Assembly (NCBI GenBank): GCA_963576725.1
Contig: OY755237.1
Location: forward strand, 66,126,269 to 66,190,268
Origin: Azorinus chamasolen
Taxonomy: Eukaryota; Mollusca; Bivalvia; Cardiida; Solecurtidae
DNA: 64,000 nt
Direction of reading: 5' to 3'
Made by a program: the position numbers and the translations under genes. Of this stretch, positions 1,047 to 59,711 are shown piece after piece. Below the pieces are notes generated by a model. That model was not told where the DNA came from. It made no database searches and saw nothing but the letters and a program-made list of their open reading frames with translations. The first letter of the stretch is position 1. Every line of letters starts with the position of its first letter.

Positions 1047-1803
1047 AGACTGTCGTCAGTTTTAAAGCGATACTCTCTACAATAAACACATGAGTATCAA
1101 TACAAATCATAAATCATGTTCACTTGGATTTTATATCTACGAGCGTAGCATGACCATGTGATACAATATACACCGCTTTTGTCGACCTTTATAATATTTT
1201 TGGGTATAACATCGGGGTCTTCAATATGAAATACTACAAAGTTTTGTTTTATTCAGCGTCTATTTGATACAATTCTTTAGGTGCCGTCCGACAAGGTTCT
1301 GCCTTCTTGCAAATGGAATTATATATATCTCTGAGTCTGCAGATCCAAACTGCTCTTTTGCATGAAAAATGCACTAGTGCATTTCCGCGATTTACGGCAT
1401 TCTGTTTCGGCACTCCCACACGGCAGATTATGTGATACAGATTTGATTCTATAGTTCCCGTAGTGGTCAGCTTTTTTTTTTTCATCATTGTGCCATTACA
1501 AATAATCACCTAATCAATATTCACGCAAACAATTATTTCCCACATAAATTGATATCCATGCGGTAAAGTGTTAAAACGAGTAAAATTTCCGATTAATCGC
1601 AAGTGAATCAACAAAGCGTTTTTAATGTTATTGATTTCACTGATTTATTTCAATATCTGTTAAAGGTGAAAATAAACTCACTTAATCAATCTTGAATTTG
1701 CTCGTATTCGACATGTCGGTTTTCGATCAATAGATATTGCTGAAATGTCAATTTCATATGTATATTTACGCATTGCCTATGTATGGGTGTATATATAATT
1801 ATA
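1047..1803. other. No recognisable feature
   Basis: The longest reading frame here, 86 codons on the minus strand at 1249-1509, resembles nothing I know and has no coding-like composition. No repeat is evident. Confidence 0.6.
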
Positions 1804-2001
1804 CAATAAAACCCCGCTAATGCGACCACCTAAAAGAAGTATAATTCTGAGTGCTAGATGCAGGTGGTAGCTTAATGCAGGACAAAAGTAACGCAGAAAG
1901 CTCCTAGATCTGCATTACTTTTGTCCTGCATTAAGCAACCACCTGCTTATAAAGGCACCCATGTTTATTCATTAAGTGGTCGCATTAGAGGGGTTATACT
2001 G
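1804..2001. mobile_element. Family G2 MITE (pogo/Tigger-like, TA type)
   Basis: Near-palindrome of 198 bp flanked by TA on both sides (1802-1803, 2002-2003). Termini read CAATAAAACCCCGCTAATGC on the left and GCATTAGAGGGGTTATACTG on the right. The core pairs AGGTGGTAGCTTAATGCAGG with its inverse, and the hairpin tip is shortened to GCTCCTAGA. Confidence 0.8.
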
Positions 2002-2062
2002 TATATGCGTTCGAATGTGCTCCCTGATGGAACTGCCTTATGTTCTGATGGAGCTGTCTAAT

Positions 2063-2158
2063 GACCTGAACTGTTTGCTTATTAATGACCTGCTCTGTTT
2101 GCTTATTAATGACCTGCTCTGTTTGCTTATTAATGACCTGATCTGTTTGCTTATTAAC
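2063..2158 (+). repeat. 24-bp tandem repeat, four copies
   Basis: Four consecutive 24-bp units of the form GACCTGCTCTGTTTGCTTAT plus TAAT. The unit contains CTGTTTGCTTAT, the distal hairpin edge of family A, so the array probably grew from a family A fragment. Its last unit runs into the TTAA of the next family A copy. Confidence 0.85.
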
Positions 2159-2406
2159 CATTTACCCCCATCAATATTCATGTACGAATAATAGCATCAT
2201 GAATATTAATTAAAGTAACTGTTATACATTTAATAGCACATGGACACAGCAATGTTTGACCATGGCAGAAACTGTAGACTCATGTCTGTATTATTTCATA
2301 AGCAAACAGAGTAGACCCTGATCAGACGGTTCCTATAGGAGCCGTCTGATCTGGGTCTAGTCTGTTTGCAAAGACGTAGAAAGATGTATTTATGGAGGAA
2401 AGGGTA
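2154..2406 (-). mobile_element. Family A MITE with well preserved hairpin
   Basis: TTAA at 2154-2157 starts the element and GGAGGAAAGGGTAA ends it. The hairpin at 2302-2369 pairs GCAAACAGAGTAGACCCTGA with TCTGGGTCTAGTCTGTTTGC around GGTTCCTATAGGAGCC. It carries the recurrent CCCTGAT versus CCCAGAT arm difference. Confidence 0.85.
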
Positions 2407-2687
2407 ATGCTACTCGTATGGTATAACATTGCCTTGTTCATAGTGCCATGATAAAACATAGCAAATCAATAATGCATATTCGTCAGGTAAAGTATTAATA
2501 ACACCCATCGGGGAGTGGATGGAGTCATGGGATGGAGTTACTTTCTAGTTAATCAAAGGGGTAATTCGCCGATTCCAAATAAACTGTGACAAGGATGGTG
2601 ATAACTGACAAAATGATTAATTACTGAATGCAATAAAATATCACCACAGACCACTTGATTTATTATCATAAGAGTTCGTACAGAAAG

Positions 2688-2830
2688 CAGGTGGTTGCTT
2701 AATACAGGGCAAACGTAATACAGAAAGTTCTTGTACTGCATAAATGTTCGTCCCGCATTAAGCTAGCATCTGTTTTAATTTATCCAGAATTAGACATGTG
2801 TTGAGTGGTCGTATTAGCGAGACTTTGCTC
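2688..2830. mobile_element. Family G2 MITE, left end lost
   Basis: It begins inside the core at GCAGGTGGTTGCTTAATACA and runs to a decayed right terminus (GTGGTCGTATTAGCGAGACT). The left terminal inverted repeat is absent and the tip is scrambled. Confidence 0.6.
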
Positions 2831-3161
2831 TAGAATGAAATCATATCATTAGTTTTCCTTCGCTGTTATTAACCTAAGTTTGAAATGTATGATAAAGTAA
2901 TATACTATTTAAATACTTTCAGTGATACTTGATATCTATTAATAAAATATCTAATAATTGAATTACTCACACGAGGTATAGTAACATGTGGGTTAGCTTA
3001 ATCCCTTATTCCACGAACAGTTATGTAAAACATTATGATATCAGATCAGAACAGAATCTTTATTAACAATTTATACATTGAGTACCTCACTGATATCGTG
3101 ACTACTAATGAGCTCAATTCTTATAAAGCTAGAATAATTTCTATATTAAATCATATTCAAA

Positions 3162-3234
3162 CAGGAGCCGTCTGATCTGGGTCTACTCTGTTTGCAATGG
3201 TGTATACAGGCGTATTTATGGAGTAAAGGGTTAC
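3162..3234 (-). mobile_element. Family A half-hairpin fragment
   Basis: Only the right arm (CAGGAGCCGTCTGATCTGGG) and the right terminus (TATTTATGGAGTAAAGGGTTA) remain. The left part is missing or unrecognisable. Confidence 0.65.
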
Positions 3235-3449
3235 TGCAGAATGGGCGTAGTTCGTTTCGTCCTGCATAAATTTACTACCTGCACGAAAGAATCAGTATCA
3301 TACTATCGTTTAGTGTTAGGTGTAGAGGGGTTTACTGTAGTCTTGAAATTTGTATAATTATACGTCCGCCGCCATGCAGAGCAATAGAAAAGACGAATAA
3401 AGCGGAACCTGGCTTAAGCGGCCATCAAAAAGATGTCTAATTATGGGTC

Positions 3450-3535
3450 TGTAAGGCAGATGGTGTCTTACTTCAGGTCAACAGTAATACAAGAGCTTTC
3501 TCCATTATTTTTGTCCTGCATTAAGCTACCACATC
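3450..3535. mobile_element. G-type core remnant
   Basis: Degraded core with TACTTCAGGTCAACAGTAAT on the left and TTTTGTCCTGCATTAAGCTA on the right. Termini are not identifiable. Confidence 0.45.
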
Positions 3536-3539
3536 ATTT

Positions 3540-4278
3540 TTAAAAATGTAGTTTTTTAAACATTCAGTAAATGAATGGCCGCAGAAGTATAGTTCTATTG
3601 TACTGAATTATCAAAGTGTCTTAAGGTGTCTCAGCCAATCTCTATGTTGCTGAAAAAACAAGTAGCAGCAAGGAAGGATCTGGCGGAGAAATATCAAAAC
3701 AGTTTTACACTGATTTACCAGTACAGCTCTGCAACATATATGGAAAGTGCTTTGCTGCAGCTGTAAACAGTATGCACTCCTATTAGTCGATCACATGGGA
3801 TTGATCAGTGCCGTCAGTCTGACTTGAAAACATGTTGGCATGTGTTTGACAAATCACGTTTCTATTGCAGGGACTGGAGAAAAGCTACATAATGGTAGTT
3901 TAATCAACCTGTTTTAGATTATTTTCTCCATGCTTATGTCCGATGTTTCTGTTCTTTTGTCTGTCCTCCCCATAAGTTGCGTCAAGCTTATCTCCAAGAG
4001 TATTTGATTTAGAGATTTAGAGACATTTAGAGAAATGAGTGACAGACAGTATATTAAAGACCATTCCACAAGTGAACAGCTCTGAAAAGAAATGATTTCT
4101 TACCAAAGCTGTTACATGTATGAGAGCACCATATGTGAACTTGTCAAAGTGTATCCTTTCAAATAATCTAATTACCAGAATTATTTTGTCTGCGGGCTCT
4201 TTGTGAAGAGGGATCCATGCATGGCTTGGTCAACACTGTGTACCTGATAACTATTTCAATGTGGCATTCTCAGAGCGG
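3540..4278. other. No recognisable feature
   Basis: No ORF, repeat or structured element that I can support. Confidence 0.6.
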
Positions 4279-4428
4279 AATAACCCTTCCGTATTTAACT
4301 ATATTAGTATGGAACAGTTAATTGTGCTAGAGGATTTGAATGACATGCAATGCAGACCATGATCGGTGGGCTCCTCTAGGAGCCATCTGATCAAGGTCTA
4401 CACTGTGTGTCACTCATTCAAGGGTTAA
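4279..4428 (-). mobile_element. Family E MITE
   Basis: The left end is ATAACCCTTCCGTATTTAAC and the right end is TTCAAGGGTTAA. The hairpin near the right end reads GCAGACCATGATCGGTGGGC, then TCCTCTAGGAGCC, then CTGATCAAGGTCTACACTGT. Here both arms carry T at the position that differs in most copies. Confidence 0.65.
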
Positions 4429-4605
4429 AAGATACTAGATTGTAACAAGCTAAGGACCTGTCCTTACTGCGCGGGTATTTTGGGTGTTTAACCTTTGTTT
4501 AAAGGATATAAAGTTAAACTTCAATATCTCGAACTCGGATAACTCGAACTTCTGGATAACTCTAAGTCAAGGTTCGGTCCTTCCAAAAGTAAAAGCTCTG
4601 AAAGC

Positions 4606-4838
4606 ATCGACGCTTTTTCACGTGCTTACAAACAGAGTAGACCCGGATGAGATGACTCTTATAGGAACCGTCTGATCAGGATATTCTGTTTTTTGATGAA
4701 TTTATTTTGGATCTAACTCTACAGTTTTTGTCCAATACCAAAACATCCTCAGTACATGTTATTATAAAAATTAATTTAATAGTTATTCATGATGTATTTC
4801 AGTATTTCTTCCAAGAATACTCACGGAGTAAAGGGTCC
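4606..4838 (+). mobile_element. Family A MITE, decayed
   Basis: A hairpin from AAACAGAGTAGACCCGGATG to ATCAGGATATTCTGTTTTTT (4628-4696) is followed by a family A right end, ACTCACGGAGTAAAGGGT. The exact left end is uncertain. Confidence 0.6.
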
Positions 4839-8430: not shown

Positions 8431-8635
8431 CAGTAGAACCCCGCTAATGCGACCACTTAATGAATAACCATAGTTGTCTTTATAAACAGGTGGTTGCTTA
8501 ATGCAGGACAAAAGTAATGCAGAAAGCTCCTATAGGAGCTTTCTGCATTACTTTTGCCCTGCATTAAGCTACCACCTGCATCTAGCACCCAGAATTATAC
8601 CTCTTTTAGGTGGTCTCATTAGCGGGGTTTTACTG
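8431..8635. mobile_element. Family G2 MITE, nearly perfect palindrome
   Basis: CAGTAGAACCCCGCTAATGC and GCGGGGTTTTACTG are the termini of a 205-bp palindrome. The core (8487-8580) is almost mismatch-free around AAGCTCCTATAGGAGCTT. TA follows on the right, but the left flank reads TT, so the duplication is not intact. Confidence 0.88.
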
Positions 8636-10597: not shown

Positions 10598-13438
10598 ATG
10601 CCTTTCGTACTGCAGTATGCTGTTAATCGGCTAGAGAACCGATACTTTTTTTTACCGTCGCCGAAGAGAGGTCTTTATGTTTTAACTTGAAACGCGCCTA
10701 GTTGCGGTATACAGTACGTAGGACAAACAGGACGTGCTTTGAAAACTCGATTTCGTGAGCATGCATATCAGTGTCGAAATCGTAAACTAAACAATTTTTT
10801 ATACCAACACTTTCGGAAATCTGGCCATTCTTTTAAAGATGTTTTAGTACAAATTGTTGAGCATATAACATACGATAAGGAGGCGACTAGTAGCTTTAAA
10901 TCGAAAGCTAGATTTATATCTGAATTAAATTGGATCAAAAAATTGCAAACACCTTTTCCTTTAGGACTGAATGATAATATTTACCAGACTGGAAATATTT
11001 CAAAAGAACCAGATATAGATATTTTTTCAATTTTTTCTATTAGAAAACGCAAATCTCGATCGCATGGCATTCGCAAGAATGGTAATATTAAACGAAAATC
11101 TCGTTTGAAATTGACTCTTCTTGATCTACATACTTTACGCCTAATTTCGGGTAAACATGCCATGCTTTCTAGACTTTCCTCCTTATCTATATGTTCATTA
11201 AAAGAAATTGACGAGCAAGCCGATAAAATTATTTTTCGATCAGATCCTCTCATAGGAACTGCTAGTTTGATACAAAGCTTTACTCTACATGTTCTCAGAC
11301 CGCACATCGACAAATTATCTGAACACCAAAGATTCTTCTTGAAAATTCCTTTTATTAATAAAGGTATTGATTTTATTGACCTACAAAGTATTTTTAGAGA
11401 CAAAAATGTAATTGACACTATTCCTAAATACTTTAAAAATACAGAACCACCTATCATCTGCTACAAATATAACAAACCCATCAGAAATACAATTTTCAAC
11501 TACAATAAAATTGTGGCCGACCTTAATATTAATGATAATATTCCTGATAATTGAGATTGCGCCACCTCAAAATTTTGCTATTCTCCGGCTGGTCATGTGA
11601 TTACTGGTAATTTTGAGATAATTAAAGATAAACGTCTACGATCTCTTTTGAATAAAGGTCCCAAATATAGAATACCATCCTTGATAGATTTTAACTCTTG
11701 TCGAGTTCAGATTGCGGAGGGTTTACAAAATTTTAGTATTAAATGGTGTCGAAGAGAACATGTTGAGTCTACTGCCCTTTCTTGTTGGAAAAAACTAATT
11801 TTTGATATAATTGATAAACGCATTTCCTTTTACAGCTCTAATAAACACCTTCTTCCACCTAAACCTAGAACTTCATTTAGACATCTTAAAAAGGGTTTAC
11901 AGGATTTCCATTCAAAATACGTTTTTGTTCCTGCTGATAAGGCATCAAATAATGTGATTATTATTTGACGATTACATTATATCGATGTCTTGAAGCAGGA
12001 AATTACTAATACCAAGTCATACATTTCAGTTACCACTGACGAAAAGACCATCATTTCAGACCATGTCAAAAAGTGTGAACAATTTGGAACCGATATTAAA
12101 ATTACACAACATAAACTTCCTACTATGTATTGGTTACCAAAACTACATAAAAAACCATATAAAGCGCGTTTCATTGCAAATTCTAGTTCATGTACAACTA
12201 CTAAATTGTCTATACTTTTGACTTCTTGCTTAACGAAGGTAAAGGAACATTTAAGATTTTACTGTGATAAGACTTATGAAAATTCTGGAATAAATCTCTT
12301 CTGGTCTATTAAGAACTCTTCAGAAGTCTTAAACAAACTTAAGAACAAAAGGTATCTTGCATCCACTGTAAGCACGTACGATTTTTCTACTCTGTACACA
12401 ACTCTTCCTCATGTTTTAATTAAGGATAAGCTTACTAACTTGATCCAGAAAGTATTTGCCCGAGAAAAAACATCATTCTTGGCATGTAATGCTGAAAAAG
12501 CTTTCTTTACTGACGAGCAAATGAAGTATTACACCAATTGGACTTGCTCAGAAGTTTGCGAAGCACTAACCTTTCTTTTGGACAACATATTTGTACGTTA
12601 TGGGAATGCTATATACCGTCAGGTAATTGGTATTCCCATGGGTACGAATTGTGTACCACTTGTCGCAGATTTGTTTTTGTACTGCTATGAGAGAGATTTC
12701 ATGTTGAGTTTGAATCCTCAATCACAAGAAGATGTTATAAAAGCCTTCAATGATACTTGTCGATATTTGGATGATATTTTTAACTTAGATAACCCTTTCT
12801 TTAATGCTCTGATTCCTACAATTTATCCTAAAGAACTCAAATTGAATAAAGCTAACCCGTCCGACAATTATGCAGCGTTTCTTGACCTAGACCTTAAAAT
12901 TAATAATGGAATGATTTCTTCTAAAATATATGACAAAAGAGATGATTTTGATTTTAATATTGTAAATTTTCCTCATCTTGACGGGGATGTTCCCCGTGCT
13001 CCATCTTACGGGGTTTATATATCTCAACTTCTTCGTTTTGCTAGAGCTTGTTCATCTATTGACGATTTTAACAGTCGAAATCTCATTTTAACTGAAAAAC
13101 TGCTTAAACAAGGATATAGATACCATAAACTAAGAAAAACTTTCTCTAAATTTTACTATCGAAATCTCTCGCTTATTGGCAAGTACAAATGTAATCTCAA
13201 GGTACTTTTGCGACACGGTATTTCACATCCTGAATTTTATGGTGATGTGATTTACAATCTTCGTAGAATTATTGGACATACCCATTTTCTCACTTTGTTC
13301 ATCAAATATATAAAACAATTCATTAAAAAGGGATATGATCCTGTATTATTACAACATACTGCATGTTTGGTTGTGAACCCTTTTACAGTTGGCAATCACG
13401 CTGGCCTCTTTGCATGTACGCCGACAAGAAAGGTTTAG
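10598..13438 (+). CDS. Naiad ORF: GIY-YIG endonuclease plus reverse transcriptase, with three in-frame UGA (likely selenoprotein)
   Basis: The protein should nick target DNA and copy the element RNA into the chromosome. Residues count from the ATG at 10598, which may be a fortuitous start. Residues 31-75 form a GIY-YIG domain: GIQYVG at 37-42, TRFREH ending at His55, with a CCHH-like set in which the first position is UGA-coded 31 and the second is Cys36. The linker CxC is UGA319-Asp-Cys321. Ala-Asp-Lys-Ala at 446-449 matches the DKG-like motif of Penelope RTs, and UGA457 follows it. RT motifs are LPKLHKKP (about 513-520), YDFSTLYTTLP with Asp595, GIPMGTN (about 678-684) and YLDDIF with Asp725-Asp726. 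The only in-frame stops are the three TGAs; there is no TAA, TAG or frameshift before TAG at 13436. Family and domain order are known from literature; selenocysteine decoding is inference, strongly supported by the SECIS-like structure just downstream. The alternative is a recently dead copy. Confidence 0.85.
10688..10690 (+). other. In-frame TGA 1: putative Sec in the endonuclease zinc motif
   Basis: It lies five residues before Cys36 in LT-UGA-NAPSCGIQYVG. In related elements this position is the first cysteine of the CCHH motif next to the GIY-YIG core. The frame is open on both sides. Confidence 0.8.
11552..11554 (+). other. In-frame TGA 2: putative Sec in the CxC linker
   Basis: The local reading is PDN-UGA-DCATSKFCYSPAGH. 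The UGA takes the place of the first cysteine in the CxC motif that joins endonuclease to reverse transcriptase in N-terminal-EN Penelope-like elements. Confidence 0.82.
11966..11968 (+). other. In-frame TGA 3: putative Sec just before the RT fingers
   Basis: The local reading is ADKASNNVIII-UGA-RLHYID. Relatives that I recall carry cysteine between the hydrophobic run and the Arg-Leu. The Sec lies directly after the conserved DKA motif. Confidence 0.75.
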
Positions 13439-13500
13439 TACTCTATGAAGGCGACCTCTTAAATCCAGAAATGGAAGGAGAACGTCGGATATCTGTACTA
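13436..13500 (+). promoter_or_regulatory. SECIS-like element (type II) starting on the stop codon
   Basis: All expected parts are in register. Helix I pairs TAGTAC (13436-13441, which contains the TAG stop) with GTACTA (13495-13500), followed by an internal loop. The quartet is ATGA at 13445-13448 facing GGAT at 13487-13490: U46 with U90, G47 with A89, A48 with G88 (last two digits of the coordinates). Helix II has 12 positions on each side (13449-13460 and 13476-13487), nine of them paired. Unpaired AAA at 13461-13463 follows. An apical mini-helix TCCA/TGGA (13464-13467, 13472-13475) is closed by a GAAA loop, which makes it type II. It was folded by hand only. Confidence 0.85.
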
Positions 13501-14040
13501 TTTCATTTTTGTCGTACCCTTTATTACTTTTCTACAGTTACTCTGTTTGCAGCTCAATCATTGAGTACACTAGCGATAGGTGGATACAGTATGTTCAATT
13601 AAATGTTTTTTTGTTATACATGCACTTTACCACTGTATTTGCTGTCGCGGTTGTTGTAGATTAGTCGGAGAGGGGATACGTTTATTTACACTGTTTGTCT
13701 TTTAGGATGGGGATGGAATAAGGGTGAGGTTGGGCGCCCATAAACCGGTTTAAACCCCCGGTGACTTTTGTCACTGACCGTTCCAAGGCGGTACTTCCAT
13801 CTTCCTCCTATTGAATGTTTGTTTTGTCTTTGTGCGTCTCTTGTTGTTTTTTCTACCCATGTACATTTGCTGTTTCCTTGTGTTGCTGTTCGGGCGAGTG
13901 TTTGTTCTGTATGTGGTATTTCCTGCATGACTCTTTTTTGTACTTTTACCACAGTGTTTATAGTTTTGTTCGATATGGTTTATATTATAGTGTGAAGGTC
14001 GGGTCTATTGATACTCAAGGGATGCGATGCAATTTCGTGA
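13501..14040 (+). other. Naiad 3' untranslated region (probable)
   Basis: Non-coding continuation of the retroelement. It includes the palindrome TAAACCGGTTTA (13741-13752) and a small hairpin CGGTGACTTTTGTCACTG just after it. Frames of 75-88 codons here overlap each other and are not convincing proteins. The 3' limit is inferred only. Confidence 0.5.
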
Positions 14041-20559: not shown

Positions 20560-21480
20560 TAAAACTTTGGACCGACGGAGAAGACTGGAACCTGGGTTAA
20601 ATGGTGTACGACACTTCAACAAGTCACAATTCAGTCGTATAACTGAGAATATACACGACGGAGTATTAGTATCGTCTATGAAGGTTGATCTCTTGTACTG
20701 GAAGCATTATTGGATTTATTCCATAACTCGAACAAGTCACTTACAATTTAGGAATTTTCGATCGTACGAGCGTATCTCACGATCTTCATCAGCTGTTGTG
20801 CTGGATCTGTGGATTGAGTCACGTGACGTAGGAAGGTCACGTGACACAAGGAGGGTGTTGTAGACTGTTGGTAGCTTAACCCCTCGTCCCTGTTTAGTAA
20901 AAACCGTCGCTGTTTTTATTGCAATCACCTCTTTAACCTGTCTCTTGACGTGTGTGTCCTCTTACGTGATTAGTTATGTGGATTGATGTGATGTCCGGTG
21001 TGTGTGCAATGCTCATATATGGCCAAGTTGGATCTGGCTGCATGTTCTTTAAGTCTGATATCTAATGAGTGCCCTGTTTCTCCTGTGTAGTCATTATTGC
21101 ACTGTTCACATTTGATGTAATACACTACATCACTTTTTTTTCAGTGTTTCTGTTTTGTCTTTGACATAGGTAAGTTGTTGGCGGATGGAATTGTATGGGC
21201 GGTGATACATGTTGATGCCATGTTTCTTGAACATTCTTAGTAGGGCTTCTGATGTTCCACGTATGTATGGTATTCCCACGTTCACCTTCTGGCCACTCTT
21301 ATTGAACTTATCTTTGTCCTGGCTTGCCTTTTTCTTTGGGATGACAAACATCAACACTGGGTATCTATTGGCTCTGAGAGCTGACTTTACATAATCTTTT
21401 TCTGCTTCCATGTCCTGTTCTTCTGTTACTAAGGATTCAGACCGGTAAAGTACGCACTACTGATGTTTTATGGCCAATGT
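20560..21480 (-). pseudogene. Canonical Penelope-like element fragment: RT end plus C-terminal GIY-YIG endonuclease, broken
   Basis: Read on the minus strand from about 21480, a reverse-transcriptase tail (EEQDMEAEKDYVKSALRANR; IPYIRGTSEALLRMFKKHGI, ending near 21134) is followed by an endonuclease with VVYYIKCEQCNNDYTGETG and RLKEH. This is the usual Penelope/Poseidon order, opposite to the Naiad in this window. A run of eight A residues (minus strand, 21134-21141) coincides with a frameshift between the two parts, and a TAA plus a further frame change follow near 20975. The 5' part of the element is missing. Everything seen agrees with a dead, 5'-truncated copy. Confidence 0.8.
20740..20795 (-). 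ncRNA. Hammerhead-ribozyme-like motif
   Basis: On the minus strand CTGATGA (20786-20792) precedes a stem II formed by 20779-20784 and 20760-20765 (GATCGT/ACGATC), followed by GAAA. This is the conserved hammerhead core spacing, and hammerheads are known from the terminal repeats of canonical Penelope-like elements. I could not form a convincing stem III with a cleavable NUH triplet, nor a good stem I, so the copy may be inactive. Confidence 0.5.
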
Positions 21481-25390: not shown

Positions 25391-25942
25391 AGCAGTATAA
25401 TATTATTAAAAGCTGGTTGGACTGTCTAAACGTGCAATTTTCATGCCCAAAGAGAGAACTCAGAGGACAGTTACTTAGCCCATTCAAAGAACAGGTAACT
25501 GCATAATTACGTAGCCCAAGCAGACAAAATATTCGCCAGTCTTTAACCTTAATTCTTGCACAAAACGTGCTGTTGTAGTCCCGCTAGACCATGTGTTAAC
25601 AAGGCGATTCTCGTGCTCACGCGCTGTTGTTGACCGGTTTTAATTATACCTATTCGTGGCCTAAGGTAAACAATGGACGCGAATGCTATAGCGTTTTGGC
25701 CTAAGCTAGGTGAACGGTGTGAGTATTTCAGGGGCATCGACAATGAATTGTTTTTAGACACATAACATGAAATTCCGTGTAAACGGTATTTGATACAATC
25801 ATGAAATGACATCAGAAAGAAAACAGTGGCCCGGAAACTGCATAAATCGAACGAAGTGTCAAAGAAGTGTATAGTTTTGCTTGTATTTGGAAGAATTAAA
25901 CTGATGCAGGAAAGCAGAAAATGGGTTTTATGCAAGAATAGC
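25391..25942. other. No convincing gene
   Basis: A 152-codon frame on the minus strand (25549-26007) overlaps the palindrome that follows. It has no recognisable domain. Confidence 0.5.
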
Positions 25943-26059
25943 GTTAATACACGTTTGTTTTCGGGCAATAACATCTGCAGTGTCCCTTGGGAATGTTGTG
26001 GCCCCAACAGTCCCTCGGGACACTGCAGATGTTATTGCCCGAAAAGACGTGTATTAACC
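25943..26059. repeat. 117-bp inverted repeat, unassigned
   Basis: Arms containing CGGGCAATAACATCTGCAGT and its inverse, flanked by GTTAATACACGT and ACGTGTATTAAC, surround a loop of about 25 bp (AATGTTGTGGCCCCAACAGT). The arms keep GGGACACTGCAG intact. It resembles neither the TTAA nor the TA families and has no copy elsewhere in the window. Confidence 0.8.
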
Positions 26060-26555
26060 CTCTATGAGTGCAATACTCTATCAGTCAAAAAACAACGATA
26101 TAGCTTCTATACATAAGTATATAAAGCCGTCACTGAAAGTTCTATGAATATTCAGTGCTCTGATCACAAAATAACCAGCAGTGATCGTTGAATAAGTTTG
26201 CTCCAGACTCAGCATTTGTATACAGCTTCCATTAGTTTGAGGTACTTCGGCAAATTAGCATATAAATATATTTCATTCATATTAATTATTTCGATTGACC
26301 AACCGCCTCACTCATTTGAATATATACACAGTACTAATTTTTATAAGGTATAAAACAAACAAAATGAAGTTTAAAAGTGAACTTACTTTGATAAACAACA
26401 AATTAATGAAATCTAACTAACAGTTAACAAGGGAGATAATCCTGTATATACAAAACTACAGATAACTCAAATCGCTTACCTAGCGATATACTACAGGTTT
26501 TCTTGACAGTACTTTTACCGCTACATTCTCTTTTAAGAATCAAGCAGATAGTTGG
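26060..26555. other. No recognisable feature
   Basis: AT-rich, no ORF or repeat. Confidence 0.55.
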
Positions 26556-40525: not shown

Positions 40526-41863
40526 CGAGGGGTGTTCCAAAAATAATGTCACTTGCATCGGTGCTCATATAGCGGAAGTGCTTTTGTTCATTTTAATTTG
40601 CTCTGCCCTTCAAAATACTCTCCGCCAGCCAGAATACGCCTTTTTAGCCGGTCAATCCATTTTTGGAAGCATTTTTCATACTCTTCAATGGGGACACCCA
40701 TCAGACACTGATAAACAGCAGATCCAAGGGCATTTCTCGAATTGTATATCCTTCCAGATAAATGATATTTAAGTTTTGGAAAGAGAAAATAGTCGCAGGG
40801 GGCCAAGTCTGGCGAATACGAAGGGTGCGGAAGGACGGTAACCTTCTCTGACTCCAAAAAGTCAGTCACAATACGTGCCTTGTGAGCGGGTGCATTATCA
40901 TGCAAAAGTCGGACATACTTAAGTCCTGTTTTGGGGCGGCTACTTTTGTAGTAGTTCTTCAATTTTCTCAGAACAACGTTTTTATAGAACTTGCCTGTGA
41001 CCGTTCTGCCTTTTGGCACCGGGATTTGAATAGCTGGACCCTTATTAGTGAAAAAAATAGCATACAAAACCTTCTTTACCGTTCGTATTCGTTTGGCAAT
41101 ACTTGGGCGTCTGGCATTTTTAGTGGTCCATATTCGGTTGGAAACCTTCCGCTTTGGTTCAAAATAATATACCCAGGTCTCATCACCAGTGACTATATTA
41201 TCAAAAGCCTTTTTACTATATTTTGGGTACATTTTGAGAAGGTTTTTTGCCATTGTTACACGCGTCTTCTTTTGCTCATCCGTTAACAAATGGGGTATCC
41301 ATTTTGCATTTATCTTTCTAACTTTTAGGTGTTTCTTCAAAATTGCATGAACTCTTGCTAACGACAAGTTTGTCATTCGAGCCAATTGTCTTACGGTGAA
41401 TCGAGCATCAGTTTTGAGGATATTTCGGATTTTTTCTATGTTACCTTTGGTCGTAGTTGTTGCAGGACGACCTGGGCGAGCAGCATCTTTCAGTTGCTGC
41501 TGCCCAGCACTAAATTTAGCTACCCACCTACAAACAGTCCTGTGGGACATTTGGCCCTCCCCATAAATGTCACACACCTCGCGGTGAATATCTACAGCCT
41601 TTATGCCGAGTAATGACCTACCTTTTATATAGGCTCTAATTTCAAGAACATTTTCAGCTCGTTTTCCTGTCATTTTGTGTATAGTCTAACGAATAGGCTA
41701 TGAAACGATGTACACTGTACCGAGGCAAGTGAACGTGTGGACGAGATATTTACCTGTGTCACGAGCCAGTGATCACTCAATCGACACGAGGTGGTTTTGT
41801 GCATGAATTGCACGATTTCCGCGAAATAAAGCACAGATGACATCATTTATGGAACACCCCTCG
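40526..41863 (-). mobile_element. Mariner (DD34D), complete 1338-bp copy
   Basis: TIRs of about 26 bp: CGAGGGGTGTTCCAAAAATA at 40526 and the inverse of CGAGGGGTGTTCCATAAATG ending at 41863, with two differences in this span. TA target duplications are intact on both sides (40524-40525, 41864-41865). The transposase frame is uninterrupted, so the copy may be competent. Confidence 0.93.
40588..41673 (-). CDS. Mariner transposase, intact, 361 aa
   Basis: Cut-and-paste transposase of the mariner branch of IS630/Tc1/mariner. Residues 1-110 hold two helix-turn-helix segments joined by RPGRP (66-70). The WIPHLLTDEQ linker (125-134) corresponds to the WVPHEL motif. The catalytic triad is Asp164 in TGDETWV, Asp259 in LLHDNAPAH and Asp294 in YSPDLAPCDYF, with 34 residues between the last two, hence DD34D. 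Length is within the usual 345-360 aa range. The ATG at 41673 gives the expected N-terminus, 190 bp inside the right TIR end. I saw no stop, frameshift or missing catalytic residue. Subfamily not assigned. Confidence 0.93.
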   Translation of the reverse strand: MTGKRAENVLEIRAYIKGRSLLGIKAVDIHREVCDIYGEGQMSHRTVCRWVAKFSAGQQQLKDAARPGRPATTTTKGNIEKIRNILKTDARFTVRQLARMTNLSLARVHAILKKHLKVRKINAKWIPHLLTDEQKKTRVTMAKNLLKMYPKYSKKAFDNIVTGDETWVYYFEPKRKVSNRIWTTKNARRPSIAKRIRTVKKVLYAIFFTNKGPAIQIPVPKGRTVTGKFYKNVVLRKLKNYYKSSRPKTGLKYVRLLHDNAPAHKARIVTDFLESEKVTVLPHPSYSPDLAPCDYFLFPKLKYHLSGRIYNSRNALGSAVYQCLMGVPIEEYEKCFQKWIDRLKRRILAGGEYFEGQSKLK

Positions 41864-42195: not shown

Positions 42196-43530
42196 CGAGG
42201 GTCCTGCAAAAAGTTCTGTCACTAACGGGTTTCCGTAGTTTTAAACCATGTATATTTTAAAACGCTTGACTGCACCTGAATAGTGTGTTCACTATCAAAC
42301 GATATCCGTTTATTTCGTGCAAATTGCTTTACAAATGACAGAGTTATTTCAAATTGAAATATATGCAGTCATATATACTGACCAATTTACGTGTCTCAAT
42401 GTAAAATGGACGAAAAGGCTGAAATTCGTAGCTACAATGTATATCAAATGTCGCATTAGGCTTGATATAGATTCAAAGCAGATATTTGAAGAATTGTGTG
42501 GTATATATGGACCTAATGCCATTTCAATACGCACAGTTTTTAGGTGGGTCAAGGCTTTTAAAGCTGGGAAATTATCTGTTGAAGATGACACCCGTCCTGG
42601 TAGACCTAAAACCTCTGTTAGTAAGGCAAACATCGCTGCTGTAAAGGTTGTGGTCGAGCAGGATGCGCGATTGTCTGTGAAAGATATAGCTAGTTGTACT
42701 GGCATATCAGAAGGCAGCATGAAACAATTCTGAAAAAGCGTTTGGGCCTGAGAAAGGTTTGCGCTAGGTGGGTACCTCATTTGCTCACTGACGAACAAAA
42801 TAAACAACGCCTTAAATGTGCCCGGAAACTTTTGAAAACATACAACGGTTGTGATAGTCGGGTTATTTCTAACTTGCTTACAGGTGACGAAGCCTGGGTG
42901 CACATGTTTGAGCCACAGAGAAGGGCTGATAATAAGCAATGGAAGCGAAAAGATCAGAAACGTCCATGTATTGCCAAGAGAACCATAAGTTCAAAAAAGA
43001 TGTTGTACGCAATATTCTTTAATTCGAGTGGGCCAGTCGTTCAAGTGCCTTGCCCATCTGGTCGTACAGTCACTGGACGATTCTACATGAACTCTGTACT
43101 AAAAAAAGTCCAAAGTTTTTACAATAAGAAACGTCCAAGCAAAGGATGGGCAGGTGTCCATCTTATACACGATAACGCCTCCTCTCACAAGTGCGAGGCT
43201 GTTAAGTCTTTTCTGGCTTTTGAAAATGTGAAAGTTGTAAACCATCCAACTTATTCACCTGACCTGAGTCCCTGTGACTTTTTCTTATTTCCTAGACTGA
43301 AGAAAATGTTTTCTGGAAAGAAATATAAGTCCAGAAGTTCTCTTGGCAACGCTATCTATCAGTGTCTCCAACAGATACCTAAAGAAGACTATTTTTCGCT
43401 TTTCGAGACTGGGTAAAAAGGTTACAAAAATGTGTTTCGGTAAAGGGGGAATACTTCGAAGGTTTGTAATAAAAATATTTTTAATTACACGTATCACTTA
43501 AGAAATCCGAACCCAGAACTTTTTCCCTCG
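42196..43530 (+). mobile_element. Second mariner (DD34D), degenerate copy
   Basis: About 1335 bp. The left TIR reads CGAGGGTCCTGCAAAAAGTT. The right TIR, inverted, reads CGAGGGAAAAAGTTCTGG, which lacks the TCCTGC block. TA is visible on the right (43531-43532); on the left the motif reads TACA before CGAGGG. It lies 330 bp from the intact mariner, in the opposite orientation, and is a different subfamily by TIR and protein. Confidence 0.85.
42406..43469 (+). pseudogene. Mariner transposase, three frameshifts
   Basis: The coding line starts MDEKAEIRSY at 42406, changes frame near 42440, continues through a helix-turn-helix part with DDTRPGRPKTS, changes frame again near 42720 and resumes at TILKKRLGLRKVCARWVPHL. 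It then carries TGDEAWV, IHDNASSHK and YSPDLSPCDFF (34 residues between the last two aspartates). A third shift near 43400 leads to a C-terminus ending at TAA 43467-43469. All three catalytic aspartates survive, so inactivation comes from small indels only. Confidence 0.9.
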
Positions 43531-49458: not shown

Positions 49459-49769
49459 GAACCTTGTCCTTCATAGAAACGCCTTTTCATGCCTTTGCAA
49501 ACAGAGCAGATCCAGATCATGAAGGAGCCGTATGATACGGATCAGGGTCCGTGCTTATAAAACTTTTAGTTGAGTCTGAGTTCGTTCTCAAGTTTTTGAT
49601 TGGTCAGATTTGAGCCTTTGGCTCAAATCTGACCAATCAAAAGCTTGAGAACTCAAATCTGACCAATCAAAAAAGAGAACTGATTGTACAGTTTCAACCT
49701 ATAACAAACAATCATGTATACACTGTTGTCATTCTTTCTTACATGAATATTCAACAGGGAAAGGGTTAA
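49459..49769 (+). mobile_element. Family A MITE carrying a nested family H palindrome
   Basis: The left part ends in GATCCAGATCATGAAGGAGC...GATACGGATC. The right part resumes at ACTGATTGTACAGTTTCAAC and ends CAACAGGGAAAGGGTTAA. The insertion lies in the hairpin's right arm. Confidence 0.75.
49545..49680. mobile_element. Family H palindrome, right end truncated
   Basis: GGGTCCGTGCTTATAAAACT starts it. Arms with GATTGGTCAGATTTGAGCC and the inverse meet at GAGCCTTTGGCTC. A second CTGACCAATCA copy follows, then the element breaks off before its usual GGACCC end. Confidence 0.8.
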
Positions 49770-59299: not shown

Positions 59300-59711
59300 G
59301 TACCTTTTCCTGTTGCATATTCATATAAATTATGTAAGAAATAATGAGGTCATGAATATCTATATGCTTTGTTTTTTAAACAGGATTTATTGGTATTGGG
59401 AAAATCTGTAAAGCCAGGGTCCATGCTTATAAAGCTTTTAGTAGAGTCTGAGTTTCGTTCTCAAGCTTTTGATTGGTCAGATTTGAGTTCTCAAGCTTTT
59501 GATTGGTCAGATTTGAGCCCTTGGCTCAAATCTGACCAATCAAAAACTTGAGAACGTACTCAGACTCAACTAAACGTTTTATAAGCATGGACCCAGATGT
59601 ATTATAAATTTATAAGCAAACAGAACAGAACCTGATCCTTCTGGAGCCGTCTGATCTTGGTCTACGCTATTTACAAAGGTGTTAAACGTCGTTTATATGA
59701 AGGAAAGGGTA
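59300..59711 (-). mobile_element. Family A MITE carrying a nested family H palindrome
   Basis: TTATGTAAGAAATAATGAGG lies on the left. Hairpin GCAAACAGAACAGAACCTGA / CTGGAGCCGTCTGATCTTGG and end GAAGGAAAGGGTAA lie on the right. The H element splits the AT-rich half. Confidence 0.7.
59417..59594. mobile_element. Family H palindrome, full length
   Basis: GGGTCCATGCTTATAAAGCT to TTTTATAAGCATGGACCC, 178 bp. It contains two GATTGGTCAGATTTGAG units on the left, one inverse on the right, and GAGCCCTTGGCTC at the centre. Confidence 0.88.

Follow-up and report, generated by a model that had tools for sequence, protein, structure and literature searches.

Penelope-like retrotransposons of the Naiad type carry an N-terminal GIY-YIG endonuclease, a CxC linker and a C-terminal reverse transcriptase (RT), are arranged as pseudo-LTR tandem units and lack a canonical hammerhead ribozyme. 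Naiads of clams and spiders have reportedly come, independently, to encode selenoproteins with multiple selenocysteines (Sec), a result attributed to Craig and colleagues; on this basis, the kind of element is already known and the family described below is a member of it. Our literature search for Naiad or Penelope-like selenoproteins found no relevant paper in the collection searched; the study in question lies outside that collection and is cited as Craig, Yushenova, Rodriguez and Arkhipova 2021 (Mol Biol Evol 38:5005) in PMC11167929. Canonical Penelope/Poseidon elements, represented by PAc of Anolis (PMC11167929), share with the present element a GIY-YIG domain and a telomerase-like RT in one ORF, as well as pseudo-LTRs, but their endonuclease is C-terminal, whereas here it is N-terminal. 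PAc also contains a hammerhead ribozyme (PMC11167929), whereas a search of our reference copy, locus L002, with the Rfam hammerhead families detected none at E ≤ 1. Several Sec residues per protein are likewise found in selenoprotein P (SelP) and SelL; SelL uses one SECIS for two Sec and SelP has two SECIS elements (PMC3316567), whereas one was found per unit of the element analyzed here, and it starts in the stop codon. SelP and SelL are cellular proteins, whereas the present Sec residues would lie in a transposon enzyme.

The window, i.e., the whole stretch of DNA analyzed here, comprises 64 kb of the genome of the bivalve Azorinus chamasolen. Translation of positions 10598–13438 (plus strand, as for all features of this element) gave 946 codons and a terminal TAG (13436–13438); the only internal stop was TGA, occurring three times (10688–10690, 11552–11554 and 11966–11968), and there was no TAA or TAG, which bore out the single frame described in an earlier note on this DNA. 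The motif placement proposed there was also right by our own reading. In the endonuclease, two Cys positions lie between a GIY-like and a YVG motif, and the first UGA, codon 148 of the full-length protein, takes the earlier of them; the second, codon 436, opens the CxC linker; and the third, codon 574, directly follows the DKA motif (PADKASNN). The GIY-YIG region (residues 155–235, positions 10709–10951) matched Pfam PF01541 with 20.1 bits (E 8e-4), below the cut-off of 22.6, and the relative P0009 scored above it (28.7 bits). A YLDD read from the sequence at 12764–12775 is presumably the RT catalytic motif; Pfam RT matches in relatives were weak and below cut-off, and the RT was assigned from the motif together with these relatives.

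The 5' end of the element had been placed at 10598, and this proved wrong. When the stretch 10598–13438 was used to search the organism's own genome (1.72 Gb, 137 contigs), the best 40 of 3142 first-look candidates were scored, and all were about 100% identical to the query; 39 of them started at query base 77, i.e., window position 10674, and the remaining one was the window copy itself. Upstream of this point, the seven other copies compared have a common, different sequence that codes for the real N-terminus, and in L002 it extends the frame to a Met 143 codons farther 5'. Because the other copies match from 10674 and carry this different upstream sequence, 10598–10673, with its apparent start ATG, is flanking DNA that is open in frame by chance. 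The element copy spans 10674–13948 and matches L002 at 99.94% over 3275 bp. Its remaining frame (10676–13435) covers residues 144–1063 with UGA read as Sec, and carries substitutions relative to L002: K1004N and, within the RT motif GIPMGTNCAPL, A803V. The segment 13501–13948 is the 3' untranslated part, which in other copies is repeated upstream of full units as a pseudo-LTR (L002 1–816 = 3962–4777). The earlier note had also suggested that this copy may be functional, and that was not supported: without a start codon and residues 1–143 of the 1063-residue protein, the 5'-truncated window copy is a dead-on-arrival insertion.

Elsewhere in the window, a remnant of another GIY-YIG element was observed at 20991–21140 (minus strand), 33–37% identical to the endonuclease region of the families described below and with Cys at column 148. 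A mariner-like transposase ORF of 365 aa lies at 40588–41685 (minus strand), with HTH_48, DDE_3 and Transposase_1 above cut-off, and a second, at 42284–43416 (plus strand), is broken into two frames that overlap, the latter of which scores above cut-off for DDE_3 and Transposase_1. Hairpins matching miRNA models below their cut-offs, on both strands, were found at 1862–1944, 8488–8577, 25939–26062, 49566–49666 and 59483–59559, and are possibly short inverted-repeat transposons.

The family to which the window copy belongs, F1, has a full unit of 3961 bp, as given by the tandem period in L002. At many fetched loci the unit stands in tandem with a partial upstream unit, and others are 5'-truncated at various points; L019 and L020 each hold two F1 reading frames in tandem. 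The family thus has the pseudo-LTR/tandem organization of Naiads, together with an N-terminal GIY-YIG endonuclease followed downstream by YLDD, and a CxC linker formed by codons 436 (UGA) and 438. TGA occupied codons 148, 436 and 574 in all 30 fetched F1 copies (28 loci, window copy included), none having TGT or TGC at any of them, and only two TAA/TAG and one extra TGA were found among the 31,344 codons compared; the outcomes that the earlier note would have taken as refutation thus did not materialize. Similarity was the criterion by which these copies were chosen, and their ORFs share 99.78% or more identity with that of L002, and TGA conservation within F1 was set aside as evidence, since in copies so young nearly any codon would persist. 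Locus L021 holds two old F1-like fragments that have decayed, showing frameshifts and additional stops; one keeps TGA at 148, and the other keeps TGA at 436 and 574.

Protein searches of the own genome, in which only the best-scoring candidates (40 to 60 per search) were scored, gave a similar picture. With P0006 as the query, 41 of 46 matches had TGA as the only internal stop, exactly four times in 39 of them, and with P0009, 43 of 46 had only TGA stops, three or four in number. Two TGA were found in 60/60 matches to P0013, and three in 49/50 matches to P0022, the other having four. All 58 matches to P0002 contained two TGA and one TAG; all 48 matches to P0003 contained two TGA, 47 also a TAG, and one of these also a TAA. 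By our own reading, the P0002, P0003, P0013 and P0022 queries return mainly F1, several of the places being those found by the nucleotide search, and the TAG inside the P0002 and P0003 matches is the normal F1 stop, because these queries extend past it.

Two further families in the same genome, F2 (L037) and F3 (L038), of which one copy each was read, encode 1063 residues and have TGA at codons 148, 436 and 574, like F1. In F2 there is a fourth TGA at codon 137, where F1 and F3 have TGT and where all 22 covering homologs have Cys. The three proteins are 69–72% identical, and the frames end in TAG (F1 and F2) or TAA (F3). Between families, pS was 0.69–0.71, i.e., silent sites were near saturation, and pN was 0.17–0.19. 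The ratio pN/pS was 0.20–0.49 in every segment between TGAs and 0.21–0.25 after the third TGA, which indicated purifying selection after every TGA.

Next, we analyzed the residues aligned with the UGA codons in 38 relatives found with the full-length protein, a set in which the distant rows P0036–P0038 were kept and are possibly misaligned. At column 148, 21 of 22 covering homologs had Cys and one had Lys; at column 436, Cys was present in 34 of 37, with two Trp and one Leu; and at column 574, in 33 of 36, with three Trp. The second Cys of the CxC linker, Cys438, was found in 38/38. Alignment of the UGA columns, as the earlier note had proposed, therefore gave Cys nearly throughout. Every UGA site coincides with one of nine Cys columns that are nearly invariant; the chance of this for three random codons is 4e-7, a post hoc figure, as the nine columns were picked after seeing the table. 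The rows with Trp are near relatives (P0002 and P0004 at 436 and 574, P0003 at 574), and they probably represent genes called with TGA as Trp. Records of clam-symbiont MAGs (P0148, P0250 and P0274) and of Pinctada (P0036) also contain close relatives. The clusters P0239, P0275, P0260 and P0104 contain 1412 to 4545 member sequences, suggesting very high copy numbers in some genomes. No relative was found in the viral contigs searched, and bacterial and archaeal genome contigs gave two: L039, from a MAG labelled Maribacter, which has Cys at 137, 148, 436 and 574, and L040, from a Bathymodiolus symbiont MAG, which has Cys at 574. By our own reading, both are animal contamination. A sequence search of solved structures returned one match, which was not meaningful (E 2.8).

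Analysis of the 3' end revealed a SECIS element at 13436–13500, identified by the Rfam SECIS_1 match and by covariation. In the structure alignment, helix I is formed by 13436–13441 pairing with 13495–13500, the core by AUGA (13445–13448) and GA (13488–13489), and the apical AAA lies at 13461–13463. The match in the F1 window copy (13437–13499) had 26.0 bits, below the gathering score of 35, with E 0.0073 over 501 bases and 0.94 over the whole window, and it was the sole SECIS match at E ≤ 10 in the 64 kb. The gathering score was exceeded by F3, with 36.3 bits, but not by F2, with 20.8 bits (E 3). The offset was identical in the three families: base 2 of the stop codon is the first base matched in each. 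In an alignment of five rows, amounting to about four lineages (two nearly equal F1, F2, a decayed F2-like copy and F3), 92.6% of cells were paired, versus 35.8–50.5% when the partners were slid, and 7 of 19 pairs had changed on both sides, versus 1–3 when slid, indicating compensatory changes. None of 500 shuffled controls reached the paired share or the covariation score; the number of two-sided pairs was reached in 32 of them and that of pair types in 434. At base 3 of the stop codon the pair is G-C in F1, G-U in F2 and A-U in F3, and since this base varies together with its pairing partner, the stop codon is itself part of helix I; in the window copy, the terminal TAG forms the base of this helix. 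The distance of about 1.47 kb from the last UGA to the SECIS falls inside the 207–5207 nt given for mammals in PMC3316567.

The component of the Sec machinery searched for in this genome was tRNA-Sec, and one was found with 80.7 bits and the anticodon tca according to ARAGORN. Clusters of matches to the same model with 41–47 bits, below cut-off, were observed on C1 (60.68–60.70 Mb) and C8 (93.46–93.51 Mb), and other matches in this range, L030 (C2) and L031 (C1), were tRNA-Ser by ARAGORN. Both marks of a selenoprotein gene were present in the element, namely in-frame UGA at Cys-aligned positions kept across divergence and a SECIS at the 3' end. Collectively, the three families, the Cys homologs and the SECIS upheld the proposal of a Naiad-like family encoding a multi-selenocysteine protein; the selenoprotein case of the earlier note stood, and the SECIS, its decisive element, had gone unmentioned there.

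We then analyzed where related database proteins end. The 287-residue stretch between the first and second UGA found 722 proteins, and among the 120 listed, 69 ended immediately before codon 436, 37 immediately before codon 574 and 14 elsewhere. To place these ends, the local alignments were extended ungapped, and in some rows a few residues stayed unaligned. The 37 ending before 574 all had Cys at 436, and those ending elsewhere included three with Trp and three with Cys at this codon. The codon that interrupts the 69 relatives at 436 is presumably TGA. This search admits proteins of 0.55–1.75 times the query length, and the interrupted share is inflated because the filter drops uninterrupted, Cys-only proteins; the two exact end points are unexplained by the filter. 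Codon 436 switched between Cys and interrupted 22 times on a FastTree tree of residues 149–435, which comprised 136 rows after P0002 had been removed because its overlap was short; starred branches force 14 or more of these switches. A quick IQ-TREE tree, limited to the 112 rows whose state was clear, gave 20 switches, 11 or more of them forced. Weak branches are numerous in both trees, and the counts could be lower if elements are mosaic or the trees are in error. Such frequent exchange favors Sec and Cys being nearly interchangeable at 436 once a SECIS exists.

A search with residues 575–1063 gave 3310 relatives, and 112 of the 120 listed ended at 1055–1071, the natural C-terminus; the other eight ended at no common conserved Cys, and no further Sec sites after 574 were seen among the 120. 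In 31 of them the end was at 1071, with the tail S/P/A-M-(M/T/N)-x-x-x, of the form S-M-M in 25. Past their own stops, F1, F2 and F3 would read YSMKATS, YSMMVYS and YSMKIPS, and a TAA in the apical loop of the F1 and F2 SECIS is codon 1072. The simplest reading is that these 31 relatives translate into the SECIS core AUGA and stop at the apical UAA. Whether the SECIS has become fused to the end of the ORF, with the stop in helix I in F1–F3 and, in a large sister group, an ORF running through the AUGA and probably stopping at the apical UAA, one segment then serving as coding sequence, terminator and Sec signal, while conserved Cys have flipped to and from Sec many times, is a proposition that we consider evenly balanced. 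The stop codon within the SECIS helix, the fourth Sec at 137, the apparent translation into the SECIS in 31 of the 120 listed relatives and the exchange rate at 436 are possibly new.

Our preferred reading is that the window copy is a recent, 5'-truncated insertion of an abundant Naiad-type Penelope-like retrotransposon whose full-length, 1063-residue protein is read with UGA at 148, 436 and 574 as Sec by means of the SECIS and the host machinery, and we regard this as very probable. Were the TGAs ordinary nonsense mutations in a decaying pseudogene family, the truncation of the window copy and the splitting of its frame into three by a mechanical ORF listing would be accounted for, and when the F1 frame was mutated at random to the F1–F3 divergence, all three TGAs survived in 5.6% of 1000 runs; TGA survival alone is, therefore, modest evidence. 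The same simulation generated a mean of 33 TAA/TAG codons and at least 18 in every run, versus none in F3, and the identical three codons are shared by families saturated at silent sites, with low pN/pS. What weighs strongly in these comparisons is that the frames lack other stops and that pN/pS stays low behind every TGA, and decay was rejected for the family on this account, to which we give next to no credence; the window copy is dead for a separate reason. Reading of UGA as another amino acid, through Trp or near-cognate readthrough, would agree with the Trp of some database relatives, read above as translation with a TGA = Trp code, but the aligned residue is otherwise Cys, the SECIS keeps its position and shows compensatory changes, and the genome encodes tRNA-Sec. 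Trp recoding was rejected on these grounds, and we consider a non-Sec residue extremely improbable.

Two other possibilities concern how the TGA copies work. They could be non-autonomous and mobilized in trans by unseen, Cys-encoding master copies, since rare Cys copies could be missed when the best 40 to 60 candidates per search are scored; against this, no fetched F1 copy had a Cys codon at the three sites, the P0006 and P0009 queries returned mostly matches with only TGA as internal stops, and purifying selection acts within the TGA lineages themselves, so that such masters seem highly improbable. Alternatively, the UGAs could be regulated stops that yield mostly truncated endonuclease and little full-length protein, transposition then being throttled by Sec insertion according to the selenium supply. 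Sec codons commonly cause partial termination, and here three UGAs stand in series with one SECIS found per unit; this idea is, moreover, compatible with the preferred reading. The 20–22 changes at 436 on the trees fit a near-neutral exchange better than a conserved switch, and we consider a throttle unlikely.

The comparative evidence strongly supports a family encoding a protein with multiple selenocysteines. The full-length RNA would be translated through three UGAs with one SECIS and the host Sec machinery, Sec being actually inserted in place of near-invariant cysteines of the endonuclease, the linker and the RT fingers. The replaced cysteines look like structural or metal-binding positions, and some may bind metal. 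The encoded protein would presumably carry out retrotransposition, nicking DNA with its GIY-YIG domain before target-primed reverse transcription, a mode of synthesis suggested for Penelope-like elements in PMC11167929, and the window copy would be a 5'-truncated product of this process. Once a SECIS had been acquired, the change from Cys (TGT/TGC) to Sec (TGA) would be a one-base, nearly neutral exchange at conserved cysteines, and this is, in our view, the likeliest evolutionary route.

These results carry a warning for annotation, as 106 of the 120 listed database relatives of the stretch between the first two UGAs stop exactly before the column of a Sec codon. The related sequences with Cys or an interruption at one codon also provide a natural experiment on the interchangeability of Sec and Cys at structural cysteines. 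If the enzyme needs three Sec insertions, the spread of this family would be tied to the selenium supply of the host and to its SECIS pathway.
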